Positions 4,312 to 60,165 of a stretch of DNA of 64,000 nucleotides are shown one piece after another. The notes under the pieces are model-generated. The model made no database searches, had not been told where the DNA came from, and was given only the letters and a program-made list of their open reading frames with translations. The stretch lies in the NCBI GenBank assembly GCA_015499995.1, contig JADNRV010000053.1, positions 62,001 through 126,000 on the forward strand, written 5' to 3'. How positions within the stretch are numbered: position 1 is the stretch's first letter; every line of letters begins with the position of its first letter. The position numbers and the translations under genes were made by a program. The DNA comes from Flammula alnicola (lineage: Eukaryota > Basidiomycota > Agaricomycetes > Agaricales > Strophariaceae).

Positions 4312-6771
4312 TCGTGTCTTGAGTAGATTATTAGAATCGTGGCGTTCTCAGAAGAGGTGCAATTCCATCGACGTACGTGAACGGAGGTGCCGATTGAGAT
4401 GAGTTGTTCGAGTAAACTTGGCAGGGCACAACGCGCAATATTTCGTTTGCGGGAGAGAAGGCATGTTACCTAATTACCGGTCTATTCAGCGGAGTCGAGC
4501 ACAAGAGTCATCAAGCTACACACACCTTTGTGGCTCCGCATCCTACTAACTTCTCCATTTGCCTTCAAGTCGATTGCGTTTTTGACGGAAGCTTCAGCTA
4601 AGGGCAAGTGAGGCATGATGAGTGAGAGAGATTCTGTAGGCCAGCGTTCCAGGTTATATAAGCTCACAAAGTAAATGTTTCGGTGTTAGCCTTTCAAGGC
4701 GCGTCCTCCCTTCAGGTGCAACCATCATTGTGTCGAGCTTAGCCGAGTCTGCGGCACCCATCCCGTGTATGTTACAACATCTCAGATATTCAAGGTCACT
4801 CCAGGCCATATCCCCGGTCCAAAATTCCCATATCGCTAGATTTGGGATCAAGCAGAAAGTTGTCCTTGGAAAATTAGAATAGCAGGCAAATTTGGCCAAT
4901 TTCCGTAAAATTCGTGCGTCCCTGACGTCTGTTGATTACATTTTAGAACTCACATGTTCTCGAGTTCACATGTCAGATTTCAAGTTGCCTTGATTCAGCT
5001 GAGATTAGCGAGTTCTTTCGGGCAGAGCCTCTGATCCTCTGATCGGGGTCAAAACGTGACACGTATGCTCTCAGATTGATTGGCAGTGTGGATTTACATA
5101 GGTACCACTCACCGTTAATAAATGTTTTGGTCCGTTATGTTCTGCCTGAACGTTCCTGGAATAAGGCATCCGATTTTTGGGAAAACGCTCCCACGGATAG
5201 AACTCTGAGTCTCTGAGCATTGAGAAAAACAAGGCAGACTTTTGCCGCGGCCTGAATCATAAGATTCATAATCGTAGATTCGTTACATCATGCCATGGGA
5301 ATAGATCTTTTCATTAAGTCAAACGCATACTATCCAGATTCACGTCAGTGTAGCTGAAGGAAGTAGGAATCAAGATAGCTACCCTCGAAATCCACATTGA
5401 TCAAGACAAATCTACTTCAAGACCAGCACCAGGCGATATTGGTGAGAGCGTAGGCGCTAAAATAGTTCATTCGGTGAAGAACATCAATTATTATCTGAAG
5501 ATATTTATCAATGCATCAACGCGTAACAGCTCACGGACGCTAAGTATGCGATGGCCTTACCTGAGAAATTCCCATGTTTGAGGCACTGGACTGACGCCTT
5601 GTACTCCTATTAGTGTTAGCCCGTGAGTCAGTGTGAGATCAGAAGTACGAGTGTCGAACCAACGGAACAAGTGGCGTTTGAGAGGTAATGCACTGCGAAC
5701 TCCTTGCAGGCGAGGATGCGGATCACTTAAACGAGTTGGCATATTCTCATGAGGTCAACGTCGTGACATGCACATCCTCAAAAATTCGTATGAACTTCGC
5801 AATTTTTTGCACCGCGTATAAGTATTTGCAAGGCTGTACCTATTCATCAGTATCGTTATCAGTATCTGACAGAAGACTCGGGTTTGTTCGGGCCAAGTAC
5901 TGTACCTTTTCCGCATTGCGATTAATGTATAAAAACGGCTGACGGCGTATATGCGTACAATTTAGACGTCAGGGGCAGTGAAGCAGGCAGGAAAGCAGAA
6001 AAGACACTTCAGTTTTCCGAGGACATAGGAAGCTTTAGATTGGAGTTTGTTATCGTGGTCAAGAGAAAGCTGAGACAAACGTTAACAAGTTGGAGGGGCC
6101 GTGGATCAGCGTGGAATTTGCTGGGAACCAGGCCGAAGCACGGCAATGTCACGTGAAAATCATGACGGCACAGCATTTGTCGTCTTTTCCCTGCATGCCT
6201 CTTCTTTTAGAACCATGAAACCCCTATCGGTTGTGGAAAAGGATCTTTCTTTCTATTGACTCCAGAATTTAGAAAGCGCAAGAACAGTGGAATAAGGAAG
6301 TCGACTCGCAATTTTTATCCGGGTTCCTCGGCGGATGTGGTCAGAACTTCAACAACGGACATTGTACCTCCTTAAAGTGAGCGGCAAAGTCAAGGTTAAT
6401 CACAGCTGTTCACTCACAATTTTCTGCCTTAGTCGATTATCTGTGCTGAGCTCAGAAAAATCACAGTTCTGTTCCATTTTTCGTGGCTTCTGCGACCGGC
6501 GGTCAGACTTGGATCGGTTTCTTAGGTATGATAACTCCCTCGGAAAGTTGTCTGATTTCTAGAGAACTGTCCAATCTTCGAACATTGCGTGTTCTTTGCA
6601 CTGATTCTGGCCACGAATCTTATTTTTTCTCTGGGCTCTGGAGCGTTTCAAAGCCATGCTCAAACTTCGAGAACTCCCTCTTTAACTCTGACTTGCTCTG
6701 GCTCGGAGACATCTCTCAGGAGCGTACGATCAGCTTTTTTATAACCACACCATTCTTAACTCCAGGTCAAC
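4312..6771. promoter_or_regulatory. Divergent intergenic region between regulator and polyketide synthase
   Basis: This 2.46-kb interval separates the regulator start (4311) from the synthase start (6772). No convincing gene is visible, only short open frames without family features. A TATA-like TTTTATAACC lies about 36 bp before the synthase ATG. A second TATA-like block (TGTATAAAAACGG, about 5927-5939) is too distant to assign. The region probably holds the promoters of both genes. Confidence 0.5.
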
Positions 6772-29409: not shown

Positions 29410-30051
29410 GAACGAATTTCGCATACGCACTGTGAACGGCTACAGACGTTCTGGGTCTCATTCTCAACCATCGAGACTTGTTACCACGCACAGGATATCT
29501 CACTCGCTGGGTAGCAACATCAGCAAAATGTCCCGGGTCCCACGGCACGGACATGCCGGCCTGCGATCAAATCATGATCATGATCATCGCTCATAATCTG
29601 TAAGATTCCTCATAACTTTCTACGGATAGCTCTTAGTTCTCATAGACACATTACATCTCATCTAAAATAAAGGAAATCAAACTGTGAGATATAAGATAGT
29701 TATAGATAATGCAAGTGATTTCAGTGTTCATGAGCTGACTCTGAGCAAGACCAAGTCAAGACCGAGTTCAATCATTGCTGAGATGTAGTCAAACCAGCAG
29801 CCAGTTACAAAGCTATCCCAGCTTCAATATGTGCACATTGTATGGTAGCCATGTTCAAACCAGCATCCAGTTACAAGGCTATCCCAGCTTCAATATGTGC
29901 ATGTTGTATGGTAGCCATGTTTTGATTTTATCCGTGCTATGTCAACTCTAAAATCATCCAATGAATAGAATAAATCAAAATATATTGTTGCAGAATAGTA
30001 TAGATTAGATGATTAAGTAAGATGAATATGTACAATAATTTTCAACGTCGC
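29410..30051. other. AT-rich interval with a 66-bp tandem duplication
   Basis: No gene visible. A two-copy tandem repeat with a 66-bp period covers about 29,789-29,920 (units start at 29,789 and 29,855, both beginning TCAAACCAGCA). The interval probably contains the 3' boundary of the neighbouring DNA transposon, but I could not find its terminal repeat. Confidence 0.5.
29789..29920. repeat. Tandem duplication, 2 x 66 bp
   Basis: Two adjacent copies differ at only a few positions (CAGCAG/CAGCAT, AAAG/AAGG, CACATT/CATGTT). No coding potential. Confidence 0.85.
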
Positions 30052-44395: not shown

Positions 44396-47300
44396 GGATG
44401 CAGTGCCACACGGATAGCGTTGCACTCGTCCTCATCAATAGGGAGGCTCAAAGTGGGCCGCCGTTCGCGGAAGACCTGGAGCATAGTTAGATGGACAGTC
44501 GATATATTCGGAGTATCACTCGCTTGCGCCTTGCATAGTTCTGGCATCCGCATGAGGAACTCTGAAATGTACTATTGACCTCATTGACAATCAATGTGCT
44601 GGGGAATACTACATACCGTGAAACTGGGAGGAATAGAAGTATCTAGAGAGTAGAGTGTGTAAGTCTACAGCGGCATCTAGGTCAGTAGCATGAAAGCTCT
44701 CGCCTTAGGGGAGAATTTCCTCAACTACATAAACATCGTCAGAACGAAACGAGCATGGATTCCCAGAACACTCACATCGACTAGCTTCATCAGCTTTTGC
44801 CGCATTCTGCGCGAGTTCAATTGCGAGTTCAATCTGGAAGAGGTTATGAAAGCATGTAAGGAAATGGAAGTCACATTCCGCTTGAGAACATACCCAGAGG
44901 AGGAAGGAGATAGGCAGTACACATGAGAATTCTCAGCTAGCCTAAAACGAAATACTTACCCACTGCAACGTGCGAGACCATGGTCAGTGAGCATAGAATA
45001 TGACTGGCAATGTTGCGGAGGCACATACTTGCTGGAGGTGTGCAAAAGTAGAGTGATTGCGAGTGTCAGAAGTGGTCAGTGCTCAATCAATAGGTTCACT
45101 TACTTCCTGGAAATGCGCAAGCGAGACGGAATCGTCAGAGGGTCGGCTGGTGCTCAATCAACAAGTTCACGTACAAGCTGTAAATGCGCAAGCAAGGCAG
45201 AATCGTCAGAGGGCTGGTCGGTACTCAATTGACAAGTTCACATACTCGCTGGAAATGTGTAAGCGAGATGGAATCATCAGAGGGCCGGTCGGTGCTCAAT
45301 CAACAAGTTTACATACAACCTGGAAATGGCAAACAAGACAGAACCGTCAGAGGGACGGCCGGTGCTCAATTAACAAGTTCACATACAAGCTGGAAATGTG
45401 CAAGCGAGACAGAATCGTCAGAGAGCGAGTTGGCACTCAATCAACAAATTCACGTACTTGCTGGAAATGCACAAGCGAGACGGAATCGTCAGAGGGGCGG
45501 TAAGTGCACGATCAACAAGTTCACGTACACCCTGGAAATGCAGGAGTGAGACGGAATCATCAGAGCCTGCCAGTTAGTGCACAATCAACAAGTTGACTTA
45601 CTGCCTGGAAATGTACAAGCAAGATGGAATCATCAGAGGGCCGGTTGGTGCTCAATCAACAAGTTCACGCACAAGCTGGAAATGCATAAGCGAGACAGAA
45701 TCGTCAGAGGGTCAGTTGGTGCTCAGTCAACAATTTCACATACCGGCTGGAAATGTGCAAGCAAGGCAGGTCAGAGGACTGGTCGATGCTCAATCAACAA
45801 GTTCACGTACATGCTGGAAATGTGTAGAGAAGACGGAACCGTCAGAGGGCCCGTCGGCGCTCAAATAACAAGTTCACGTACACCCTGGAAATGCGCGAGC
45901 AAGACGGAATCATCAGGGGGTGGGTCAGTGCTCAGACAACCAGTTCACGTACTCGCTGGAAATGTGCGAGCGAGAGGGAATCGTCAGAGGGGCAGTCAAT
46001 GCTCGATCAACAAGTTCACGTACACCCTGGAAATGCGCAAGCAAGGCAGAATAATCAGAGGCGTGGTCGGTGGTCAATCAACAAGTTCACTTACATACTG
46101 GAAATGTGCAGACGAGACGGAATCGTCAGAGGGCCCGTCAGTACTCAGTCGACAAGTTCACGTACTCGCTGGAAATGCACAAGCGAGACGGAATCATCAG
46201 AGGGCCGGTCAGTGCTCGATTAAAAAATTCACGCACAATCTGGAAATGCGCAAGCAAGACGGAATTGTCAGAGGGGGGGTCGGTGCTCGATCAACAAGTT
46301 CACGTACATTCTACAAATGCTCGCAGGCGAGGAAATTGTGAGAATACTGCAAATGCATTTCTACCAAATGCTTGTATTTACCTTTTCGACTGGCACAAGC
46401 TGAATATTGCGGAAGTCCACAATGCTCAGGTCCTTCAAAGGTGGCCTATTCGCACGTATCGATGTATCTGCCCAACGGAAGCGTCGTTCGCAACGCCGAC
46501 TAGAATGCAGCGGTCATTAAATGCAAGGAAAATTGGCAAATCATGCTTACCACTCTAACCATCCGTCGTCCTGCATCACACCAACATATGTTCTGTAACA
46601 TCGTGGACACGTCGTCCTCTGAAGCGCAGCAGACTCCGACGTCAGCTTTACCCTCCTTACCTTCATGCTCATGACAACAACCGCCCCTTTCTTCACCACT
46701 GAATCCCATTCAAATGGATACTTTACGACTGCCTTACCATCCGCACTGGAAATGCTGTATTCGTGCTGCTCAACATAGTCATGACCGATCTTTCCCTTGA
46801 AGTGCTGCATCATAATATCGTGAAGTTTCTGTACCTGAAGCATGAGTGCATAGAAGGGAATGCACAAAAAAGGCGCACATCTGGTGAGTAGCAAAAGTCC
46901 ATTGGCAACGTCATCGGCTTCCCGAATGCATCTACCAGGATCACGGCGTTTTCACGACCATACCCAAGGGATGGAGGTAGTTGCCTCTGTATTGTGAGTA
47001 TCTCTTGCGTTGTTGTCGTAATTGACGCCAAGGCCTCTCTAATGACGTCCGCGTGGTAGGAAGTCGAGGAACTGAGGTAGCATGGCATTAGTGAGGATGA
47101 AGACGTTTAGTGCGAGATCCAACTAACATTGCCAGTCCAGTCAAAAACACTGTAAGATTTTGTTTATGTTGAGAAAGCTTCTGTCTAAACTCCGCAACGT
47201 CGGTGGCTTTAAAAAGACCCCACCCGATTTTGCGCCAAGAGGAGTTCCGTCCGCCACCACTGAGAGCCTTCTGGTACGACTTGATACGATCCCAGAACTT

Positions 47301-47546
47301 CTCCAGCAACTTGAGACACATTGTGGCTTCTTCCTTGATATCCTGCGCCACAGATGCATTGGGGAGAGTTGCACGAATTACGTCGTTCACAAATAGCAAG
47401 GCGTGATGGAAAGAACGCAGTTCGCTGATCAAGCATTGATACTCGTATGAGGCTCCCGTGCTGTCGTTGAGAGCTTTGTAAATTGAGAGAGCAAGGGTGG
47501 CGGCGGCGACGATGTCGCCAAAGGAGCTTGGAACGAAGGGAAGCAT
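44311..47546 (-). CDS. Ubiquitin-like-domain/zinc-ribbon protein with an array of 3-nt microexons
   Basis: Model of 27 exons, 489 residues: 47546-47128, 47071-46879, 46834-46551, 46499-46382, twenty 3-nt exons between 46310 and 44960, 44833-44776, 44703-44617 and 44561-44311. The first part matches a common fungal family: MLPFVPSSFGDIVAAATL helical N-terminus like that of STAND-associated proteins, then TIQRQLPPSLGYGRENAVILVD and a ubiquitin-like segment (VQKLHDIMMQHFKGKIGHDYVEQHEYSI). A zinc ribbon follows, CPRC...CRRC, whose second half needs the 46551-46499 splice. Usual relatives end soon after the ribbon. Here the gene continues into the repeat array and a helical segment (IELAIELAQNAAKADEASR, then LHTLLSRYFYSSQFHEFLMRM). 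Total length is divisible by three. The last about 14 codons lie in antisense duplicated promoter DNA, so the natural C-terminus may be lost. Function unknown. The first four exons are secure; the array and tail need RNA evidence. Confidence 0.7.
44960..46310 (-). repeat. 71-bp tandem repeat array = intron plus 3-nt microexon units
   Basis: Eighteen plus-strand units of mostly 71 bp start at 45079, 45150, 45221, 45292, 45362, 45433, 45504, 45577, 45648, 45719, 45786, 45857, 45928, 45999, 46070, 46141, 46212 and 46283, with degenerate units on either side. On the minus strand each unit has a donor (GTACGTG, GTATGTG, GTAAGTG or GTGCGTG), a CTGAC/CTGAT branch site about 28 nt before the end, and a TTTCCAG-type acceptor. 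Exactly three bases lie between acceptor and next donor. Going down the minus strand they are AAT 46308, ATT 46237, CGA 46166, TAT 46095, GGT 46024, CGA 45953, GGT 45882, CAT 45811, CCG 45744, CTT 45673, GCA 45602, GGT 45529, CAA 45458, CTT 45387, GTT 45317, CGA 45246, CTT 45175, GAA 45104, CAA 45029 and TGG 44960 (lowest coordinate of each). None is a stop. Confidence 0.9.
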
Positions 47547-59673: not shown

Positions 59674-60078
59674 CCGCGGCCCATTCCATGCATCTCCCAT
59701 CATAGCAGTTGTTCAACCCCAACCAGGCGGCGCTCCAGACAAAGTACGAATCTGCCGACACCTCTCGAAGAGCACCAAAGAACACAATTCCGTCAATTCA
59801 CATATCACCAAAGAAGACTTCCCTATGAGATTTGACACTGCGTCAAAGGTCGCTGACATTGTAAGCATTACTTAACGTCTTGAATTTCACCCTTCTATCC
59901 ACCCTATTACACCGACTCTCTGCGTTTAGTGCGAGAGTCTGGTTTTCTATCCATCACATACATATCTTTGGGTATTTGCCACATCTGTGCGTTACCCTTC
60001 AGAACTTGATCATGTCGAGTCCTGTCCATCCGGCTCAGGCCACATTTCGCGACTCATCCGCGACATACCTATTGTCAC

Positions 60079-60165
60079 GATTTACGATTTACGATCCACG
60101 ATCCACGATTTACAATCCTTGATTTACGATTTACGATTACGATTTACGATTTACGACCCATCTTC
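60079..60165 (+). repeat. TTACGAT/CCACGAT-type short tandem repeat inside a retrotransposon intron
   Basis: About ten variants of a 7-nt word (GATTTAC/GATCCAC) run between 60,079 and 60,165, within the 348-bp intron of the transcriptase gene. The repeat may explain the unusual intron length. Confidence 0.75.

Follow-up and report, generated by a model that had tools for sequence, protein, structure and literature searches.

A 71-bp tandem repeat that reads as twenty one-codon exons between constrained introns in a gene family of the mushroom Flammula alnicola

On the minus strand of the window (the whole stretch of 64,000 nt analyzed here, from contig JADNRV010000053.1 of F. alnicola), a tandem repeat reads as a run of twenty one-codon exons parted by tandemly duplicated introns, each of them kept in working order; the predicted mRNA would gain around 20 in-frame codons, and we consider this reading likely. 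The array, its 3-nt spacing and the constraint on its splice sites occur in six paralogous lineages, and we infer that the triplets are included in F. alnicola mRNA. With less assurance, though still on the side of the probable, the repeat would be a minisatellite coding for one codon per 71-bp unit, with 96 % of the repeat spliced off, shared by several paralogs and by more than one mushroom genus.

A search with the regular expression AG-NNN-GT, together with direct reading, located 20 triplets between an intact acceptor AG and a donor GT (minus strand, 46310–44960), exactly where an earlier note on this DNA had placed them. Their order is AAT ATT CGA TAT GGT CGA GGT CAT CCG CTT, followed by GCA GGT CAA CTT GTT CGA CTT GAA CAA TGG; these are 13 different codons with no stop, as the note had counted, and the residues predicted from them are NIRYGRGHPLAGQLVRLEQW. 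The expression matched 27 times in all, the remaining seven matches overlapping the 20 with an offset of 4 nt. TRF reported a period of 71 and 17.4 copies, and parsing with a cyclic profile resolved the repeat part into 18 units, every one a GT..AG intron of 64–72 nt and most of them, as had been described, of 68 nt (14 of 18). The claim of a CTGAY branch site holds by pattern (CTGAY-N10..30-YAG-NNN-GTRNGT) for 19 of the 20 microexons and fails for microexon 1 (AAT), which is preceded by an intron lacking CTGAY in range. This pattern has 20 matches in the window, 19 inside the array and one elsewhere, and by chance 0.29 matches are expected per window (maximum of two in 100 shuffles). By size the exons are microexons (3 nt, 20/20 in the window), with a function deduced from the constraint on splice columns described below; as in micro-exon genes, the 20 predicted exons of 3 nt are consecutive and in frame, all in phase 0. 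The last one, TGG, had been singled out for a non-repeat flank with the same splice signals, and the intron between CAA and TGG is indeed non-repeat, carries CTGAC and is conserved in paralogs.

The array sits between four exons upstream and two downstream, giving 26 coding exons (4 + 20 + 2) and not the 27 proposed earlier; the accompanying claim that the length is divisible by three stands, with 1152 nt including the stop (1014 + 60 + 78), or 1146 nt with a later acceptor of exon 3. Exon 3 probably starts at 46828 instead of the 46834 first given, because the proteins of relatives and deposited models read SPD-KLHD, a shift that leaves the frame unaffected. Exon 4 ends and exon 5 begins in phase 0, as expected from the note. 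The introns flanking the array have 71 and 126 nt, and the four gene introns away from it have 44–56 nt. In the following list, exons 2, 4 and 5 come from the joined gene model, and microexons 1 to 18 from the junction expression.

47128..47546, minus: exon 1 (ATG; helical N-terminal domain), open frame with donor, conserved in paralogs
46879..47071, minus: exon 2
46551..46834, minus: exon 3 (part of ULD_2, CPRC); relatives point to a possible acceptor 6 nt further on (46828)
46382..46499, minus: exon 4 (CRRC ... FRNIQLVPVEK), ends in phase 0
46311..46381, minus: non-repeat intron before microexon 1, 71 nt, at an equal position in paralogs
45032..46310, minus: tandem array of 18 [triplet + intron] units, from TRF, profile parse and constrained splice columns
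46308..46310, minus: microexon 1, AAT (Asn)
46237..46239, minus: microexon 2, ATT (Ile)
46166..46168, minus: microexon 3, CGA (Arg)
46095..46097, minus: microexon 4, TAT (Tyr)
46024..46026, minus: microexon 5, GGT (Gly)
45953..45955, minus: microexon 6, CGA (Arg)
45882..45884, minus: microexon 7, GGT (Gly)
45811..45813, minus: microexon 8, CAT (His)
45744..45746, minus: microexon 9, CCG (Pro)
45673..45675, minus: microexon 10, CTT (Leu)
45602..45604, minus: microexon 11, GCA (Ala)
45529..45531, minus: microexon 12, GGT (Gly)
45458..45460, minus: microexon 13, CAA (Gln)
45387..45389, minus: microexon 14, CTT (Leu)
45317..45319, minus: microexon 15, GTT (Val)
45246..45248, minus: microexon 16, CGA (Arg)
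45175..45177, minus: microexon 17, CTT (Leu)
45104..45106, minus: microexon 18, GAA (Glu); followed by a hybrid intron that resembles the repeat only in its 5′ half
45029..45031, minus: microexon 19, CAA (Gln), conserved across the matched loci
44963..45028, minus: non-repeat intron between microexons 19 and 20, 66 nt, CTGAC branch site, conserved in paralogs
44960..44962, minus: microexon 20, TGG (Trp), conserved across the matched loci; Trp in the proteins of relatives
44834..44959, minus: intron after microexon 20, 126 nt, from direct reading and the joined gene model
44776..44833, minus: exon 5 (IELAIELAQNAAKADEASR), begins in phase 0
44705..44724, minus: exon 6 (FEEILP, stop), C-terminus identical in deposited model P0005

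The deduced product matched the ULD_2 profile (PF22893) with 59.7 bits, against a curated cut-off of 24.5, and PF17111 scored just under its cut-off at the helical N-terminus. A second-look alignment likened the N-terminal fold to plant NLR CC, MLKL and HET-s domains, with scores of a kind that is common for helical bundles. The likely domain order is a helical N-terminus, ULD_2, a zinc-ribbon-like CxxC/CxxC segment, a spacer coded by the array and a C-terminal helix. A PDB sequence search with A4 gave one match (E 1e-4), with no stretch passing alone, and nothing in the Foldseek list reached E ≤ 0.001. The AF2 model of P0010, a protein from a relative, is weak (mean pLDDT 59.5); it folds residues 258–288, which take in most of the array-like segment, into one helix.

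Conservation was examined by aligning the units to a cyclic 71-state profile in which the splice positions were given no extra weight. This parsed 117 units from six lineages (window, L010, L009, L012, L015 and L013), and 110 entered the column test, after removal of the hybrid unit that closes each array and of the one in L009 with a 33-nt exon. Being near copies, the loci L014, L016, L017 and L018 were omitted after parsing, and the parse did not extend to L011, with its large insertions, to L019, at a contig end, or to the fragment L020. Seven of the 68 intron columns are invariant in the 110 units (G1, T2, G5, C37, T38, A40 and A67), and they are donor, branch-site and acceptor positions only, as in the donor, CTRAY branch-site and acceptor consensus. 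The acceptor G68 is kept in 109/110 units and, by the letters read, branch column 39 is a purine in 108/109 and column 41 a pyrimidine in 106/109. Variants amount to 1 of 880 letters in the eight splice columns, compared to 765 of 6050 (ca. 13 %) in 55 background columns, i.e. those left after setting aside the eight splice columns and columns 3, 4, 6, 39 and 41. The chance that all seven invariant columns fall among the eight splice columns is 8e-9, the latter having been named after the profile was seen; at the background rate of 0.127, some 46 of the 110 units would lack GT or AG, and one does.

Since the units are kin by descent, the column test overstates their independence; the pairwise test between the window and L010 suffers less from this, and there GT/AG changed at 0/72 positions versus 150/1132 in the rest of the introns (p = 5e-5), an intron change rate close to the synonymous divergence of the exons (dS 0.137). 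The direction is alike, without significance on their own, for L012 vs L016 (0/76 vs 43/1141, p = 0.059) and for L013 vs L014 (0/128 vs 13/2047, p = 0.45). The exon spacing of 3 nt is free of gaps in all 110 units, and intron length differs from 68 nt in 36 of 117. There are a few exceptions: one acceptor is AA in L013 and L014, one intron has 35 nt in L012 and 42 nt in L016, and one spacing has 2 nt in the fragmentary copy L019. Because only columns of splice signals are invariant, the constraint bears on every unit as an intron, and each unit thus appears to be maintained as one. Column-wise constraint in six array lineages supports the original interpretation of the unit as an intron plus a one-codon exon, which is also backed by a 68 + 3 spacing in Galerina (see below) and by the conserved non-repeat CAA–TGG intron. 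A hairpin fold, as in mirtrons, was not found for the consensus and four introns of the window (z-scores of +0.14 to +0.78).

These same data bear on two explanations without minus-strand introns. A young neutral minisatellite inside an intron, its splice-like sites passively copied, would fit a tandem array of period 71 whose unit number differs among paralogs; it is very improbable given 13 % variants in the background versus 1/880 in splice columns, a CAA–TGG intron that is not repeat and yet has the same layout, and the identical spacing in Galerina. On the plus strand, frames of up to 263 aa are open across the array, but that it encodes a repetitive protein there is a practically negligible prospect: the period of 71 rotates the frame with each unit, intron lengths vary by non-multiples of three, and the invariant columns coincide with splice positions of the minus strand.

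The triplet letters are the most variable of the unit. Coding selection on them was not found between the window and L010, where they changed at the intron rate (7/54 vs 150/1132 in introns); between L012 and L016, 0/57 changed (p = 0.12). Nor was stop avoidance significant, with no stop in 117 triplets and about two expected from position-wise base counts. At the third letter, 108/110 units have T or A. Intron columns with a T consensus vary to C 139 times vs 11 to A, and the third triplet letter is A in 32 cases vs C in one; since a change from NNT to NNC is silent, coding cannot explain this excess of A, and we take the bias as a putative demand on the base at donor −1. An A at the third triplet letter tends to accompany an A at donor +4. 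Position +4 is A in 5/5 donors with a non-purine at +3 vs 14/111 of the others (p = 7e-5), a weak association, all five being in the array of L013.

Triplets evolving at the intron rate also suit a different reading, namely that 46381–44834 is removed, entirely or nearly so, as one intron of 1548 nt, with the internal sites as decoys or recursive stepping stones and their triplets lost from the mRNA. Phase 0 at either end would keep a full skip in frame as well, and a fission yeast intron that spans four tandem duplicates offers a precedent (PMC4974935). We nevertheless regard removal as one intron as unlikely, because it leaves the invariance of donor G1, T2 and G5, of the branch-site C, T and A and of the acceptor A unexplained, the four introns elsewhere in the gene have 44–56 nt, and the proteins P0010, P0022 and P0025 of relatives carry extra residues at the junction.

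These three are JGI proteins from contigs of 901–1486 nt, whose frames cross the covered upstream intron positions unbroken; ORFs such as P0039 read into those introns. Since the frames are intron-free, we infer that the contigs are cDNA. Between FRNI..., which in F. alnicola spans 11 residues to the end of exon 4, and the C-terminal segment, P0010 has the extra residues SLLWVELVELLALARRREKW (20) and P0022 has ELTWPWREDGGWLAAVLTNKEW (22). P0025 aligns least clearly, being unclear past FRNI, and has about 10 residues ending in W at the junction. The final Trp in P0010, P0022 and, less clearly, P0025 matches the TGG microexon; by eye, the three segments are otherwise unlike one another, as would be expected of free-running triplets. 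The extra 20, 22 and 10 residues fit the prediction of the microexon model and are putative microexon products, and the first two segments, ending in Trp at the junction of cDNA-like proteins, back the one-codon exons proposed in the earlier note. In P0009, about 10 such residues are followed by VCEL, which is what a unit donor yields when read through, as though splicing were incomplete, a weak indication given the weak fit of its tail to the unit (76/135, p = 0.0085 by shuffling). P0008 from Galerina marginata reads through a 68-nt unit, a triplet and about half of the next unit, i.e. with 68 + 3 spacing, and matches unit-NNN-unit at 86/105 bases (at most 67 in 2000 shuffles).

The microexon run is missing from all five F. 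alnicola models deposited for this family (P0001–P0005): P0001 ends reading into a unit, P0002–P0004 stop before the array and P0005 skips it. Additionally, P0006 from Galerina terminates in a unit-like reading. Such varied ends, together with the partly spliced appearance of P0009 (ca. 10 residues and then a unit-like donor, with a weak fit) and the fact that every skip is in frame, would agree with isoforms that keep differing numbers of microexons and have a spacer of mixed length. This variable inclusion, which overlaps with the run of one-codon exons that we prefer, is a tentative but real possibility. The 20 and 22 residues of P0010 and P0022 match full-length arrays and suggest near-complete inclusion instead, and the deposited models may simply miss 3-nt exons, since many gene models are made automatically and exons of this size are seldom included.

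The consensus unit has 202 matches in the 74.4-Mb genome; the matches listed are on seven contigs, all in loci of the array gene family or its fragment L020. All close paralogs recovered by protein search have an array at the equivalent point of the gene. They form six diverged lineages (window; L010; L009; L012 and L016; L015 and L011; L013 and L014), and contigs C560 and C643 carry almost identical copies of the window gene. The window, L010, L009, L012, L015 and L013 have 18, 18, 20, 19, 10 and 32 repeat units and, with the last two microexons, 20, 20, 32, 21, 12 and 34 predicted codons, respectively, the 32 codons of L009 counting its 11-codon exon. Of 12 matched loci, several of them near copies, 10 have CAA as microexon 19 (AAA in L009, TAT in L020) and all 12 have TGG as microexon 20. 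The eight copies joined, L011 not among them, all have open exons upstream of the array, and the flanking exons have dN/dS of 0.18–0.50 (ten pairs). At the projected borders, which may be off by a few bases, L016 lacks a clean exon 1 donor, and L013 and L014 a clean exon 3 acceptor. A distant paralog on C13 (28 % identity) showed no array by the junction expression on either strand, a search of viral contigs with P0022 gave no match, and a search of genome contigs with A2 gave five pattern matches, none of them confirmed.

Several loci have peculiarities of their own. In L009 (C53), an array unit ends in a 33-nt in-frame exon (4701–4733, TVNIQLVPVKK), a copy of the end of exon 4, which is followed by a copy of the following intron and a restart of the array; this internal duplication keeps the frame, and the deposited model P0001 includes the exon. 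L011 (C53:70800–80799) is an allele-like copy of L015 with two insertions of more than 1 kb within array introns; its gene is also split upstream and looks dead. The longest arrays, with 32 repeat units, are those of L013 and L014 (C157); in L013, the intron after TGG enters unrelated DNA and exon 5 was not found in the stretch covered. L019 is a fragment at a contig end whose exons have indels, and L020 (4862–5060, C323) is an isolated fragment, outside the recognized gene copies, that comprises some two units together with TAT and TGG triplets. C108 contains two further ULD_2 places.

If the array is a run of one-codon exons, each intron of ca. 68 nt would be removed by the spliceosome via intron definition. 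A 3-nt exon cannot hold U1 and the branch and acceptor factors simultaneously; since it is too short for the factors on both sides together, the introns would probably be spliced one after another from the 5′ end, and adjoining short introns would most simply be removed singly. Each skipped microexon would shorten the protein by one residue and leave the frame intact, and some 20 residues would be added between the zinc-ribbon-like part and the C-terminal helix. Unequal crossing-over would gain or drop whole codons without risk to the frame, because the unit is one codon plus one intron, and the protein segment would change by one residue per unit. Such an array would amount to a peptide assembler run by the spliceosome, its segment evolving one residue per duplication, and one-codon exons would, to our knowledge, nowhere be packed more densely. 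Splicing models already struggle with a single 3-nt exon, and about twenty in series would test both how intron definition operates on exons too short for any factor and whether splicing order is forced. Frame-neutral units would also offer tandem duplication a route to lengthen a protein safely. Since gene prediction missed the array in P0001–P0005, similar arrays may go unseen in other genomes.

The earlier note knew of no described array of this kind, and no tandem array of one-codon exons was found in the literature searched, most subscription papers lying outside its reach. In the sources cited, single 3-nt exons are described in Ncam, Drosophila TnT and RPS24 (PMC8042270, PMC12686416), 1-nt exons in plant APC11 and VPS55 (PMC8831610), three consecutive microexons of 3, 18 and 22 bp in RPS24 (PMC8042270, PMC12686416), two adjacent microexons in Zygnema (PMC11096116) and 3-bp exons in fungal mitochondrial genes (PMC12308204). 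Ncam, TnT, RPS24, APC11 and VPS55 resemble the array in having at most one codon between two functional introns; they differ in that their microexons, as far as these texts go, come singly or at most three in a row, whereas F. alnicola would have about twenty, by tandem duplication of codon plus intron.

Other systems share single traits with the array. Schistosome MEG genes also have many short exons (3–81 bp), but with varying exon sizes and introns of up to 5 kbp (PMC10526429), whereas the introns here are related and of ca. 68 nt (64–72 nt in the repeat part) and the exons all have 3 nt. Tandem DNA duplication multiplies splice signals in potato RdRp, TOUCH3 and fission yeast too, although it yields one or few introns there, the fission yeast case being one intron across four duplicates (PMC4974935). 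Stwintrons (PMC9024468) and recursive splicing (PMC8605326) likewise involve consecutive splicing within one stretch and leave no exon letters between steps, whereas the array would leave three: there is neither a nested intron with nothing in between nor a ratchet point with AG directly before GT, the junctions being AG-NNN-GT with gapless triplet columns in 110/110 units. Introner-like elements are near-identical introns within one fungal genome as well (PMC4457414), but they are spread over unrelated genes; among the matches listed, the array units show no such dispersal and lie within one gene family.

Two other repeats were seen in the window, a short tandem repeat with periods of 7 and 21 (ACGATTT-like) at 60076–60160 and a 66-bp direct repeat in two copies, with 94 % matches, at 29789–29921.
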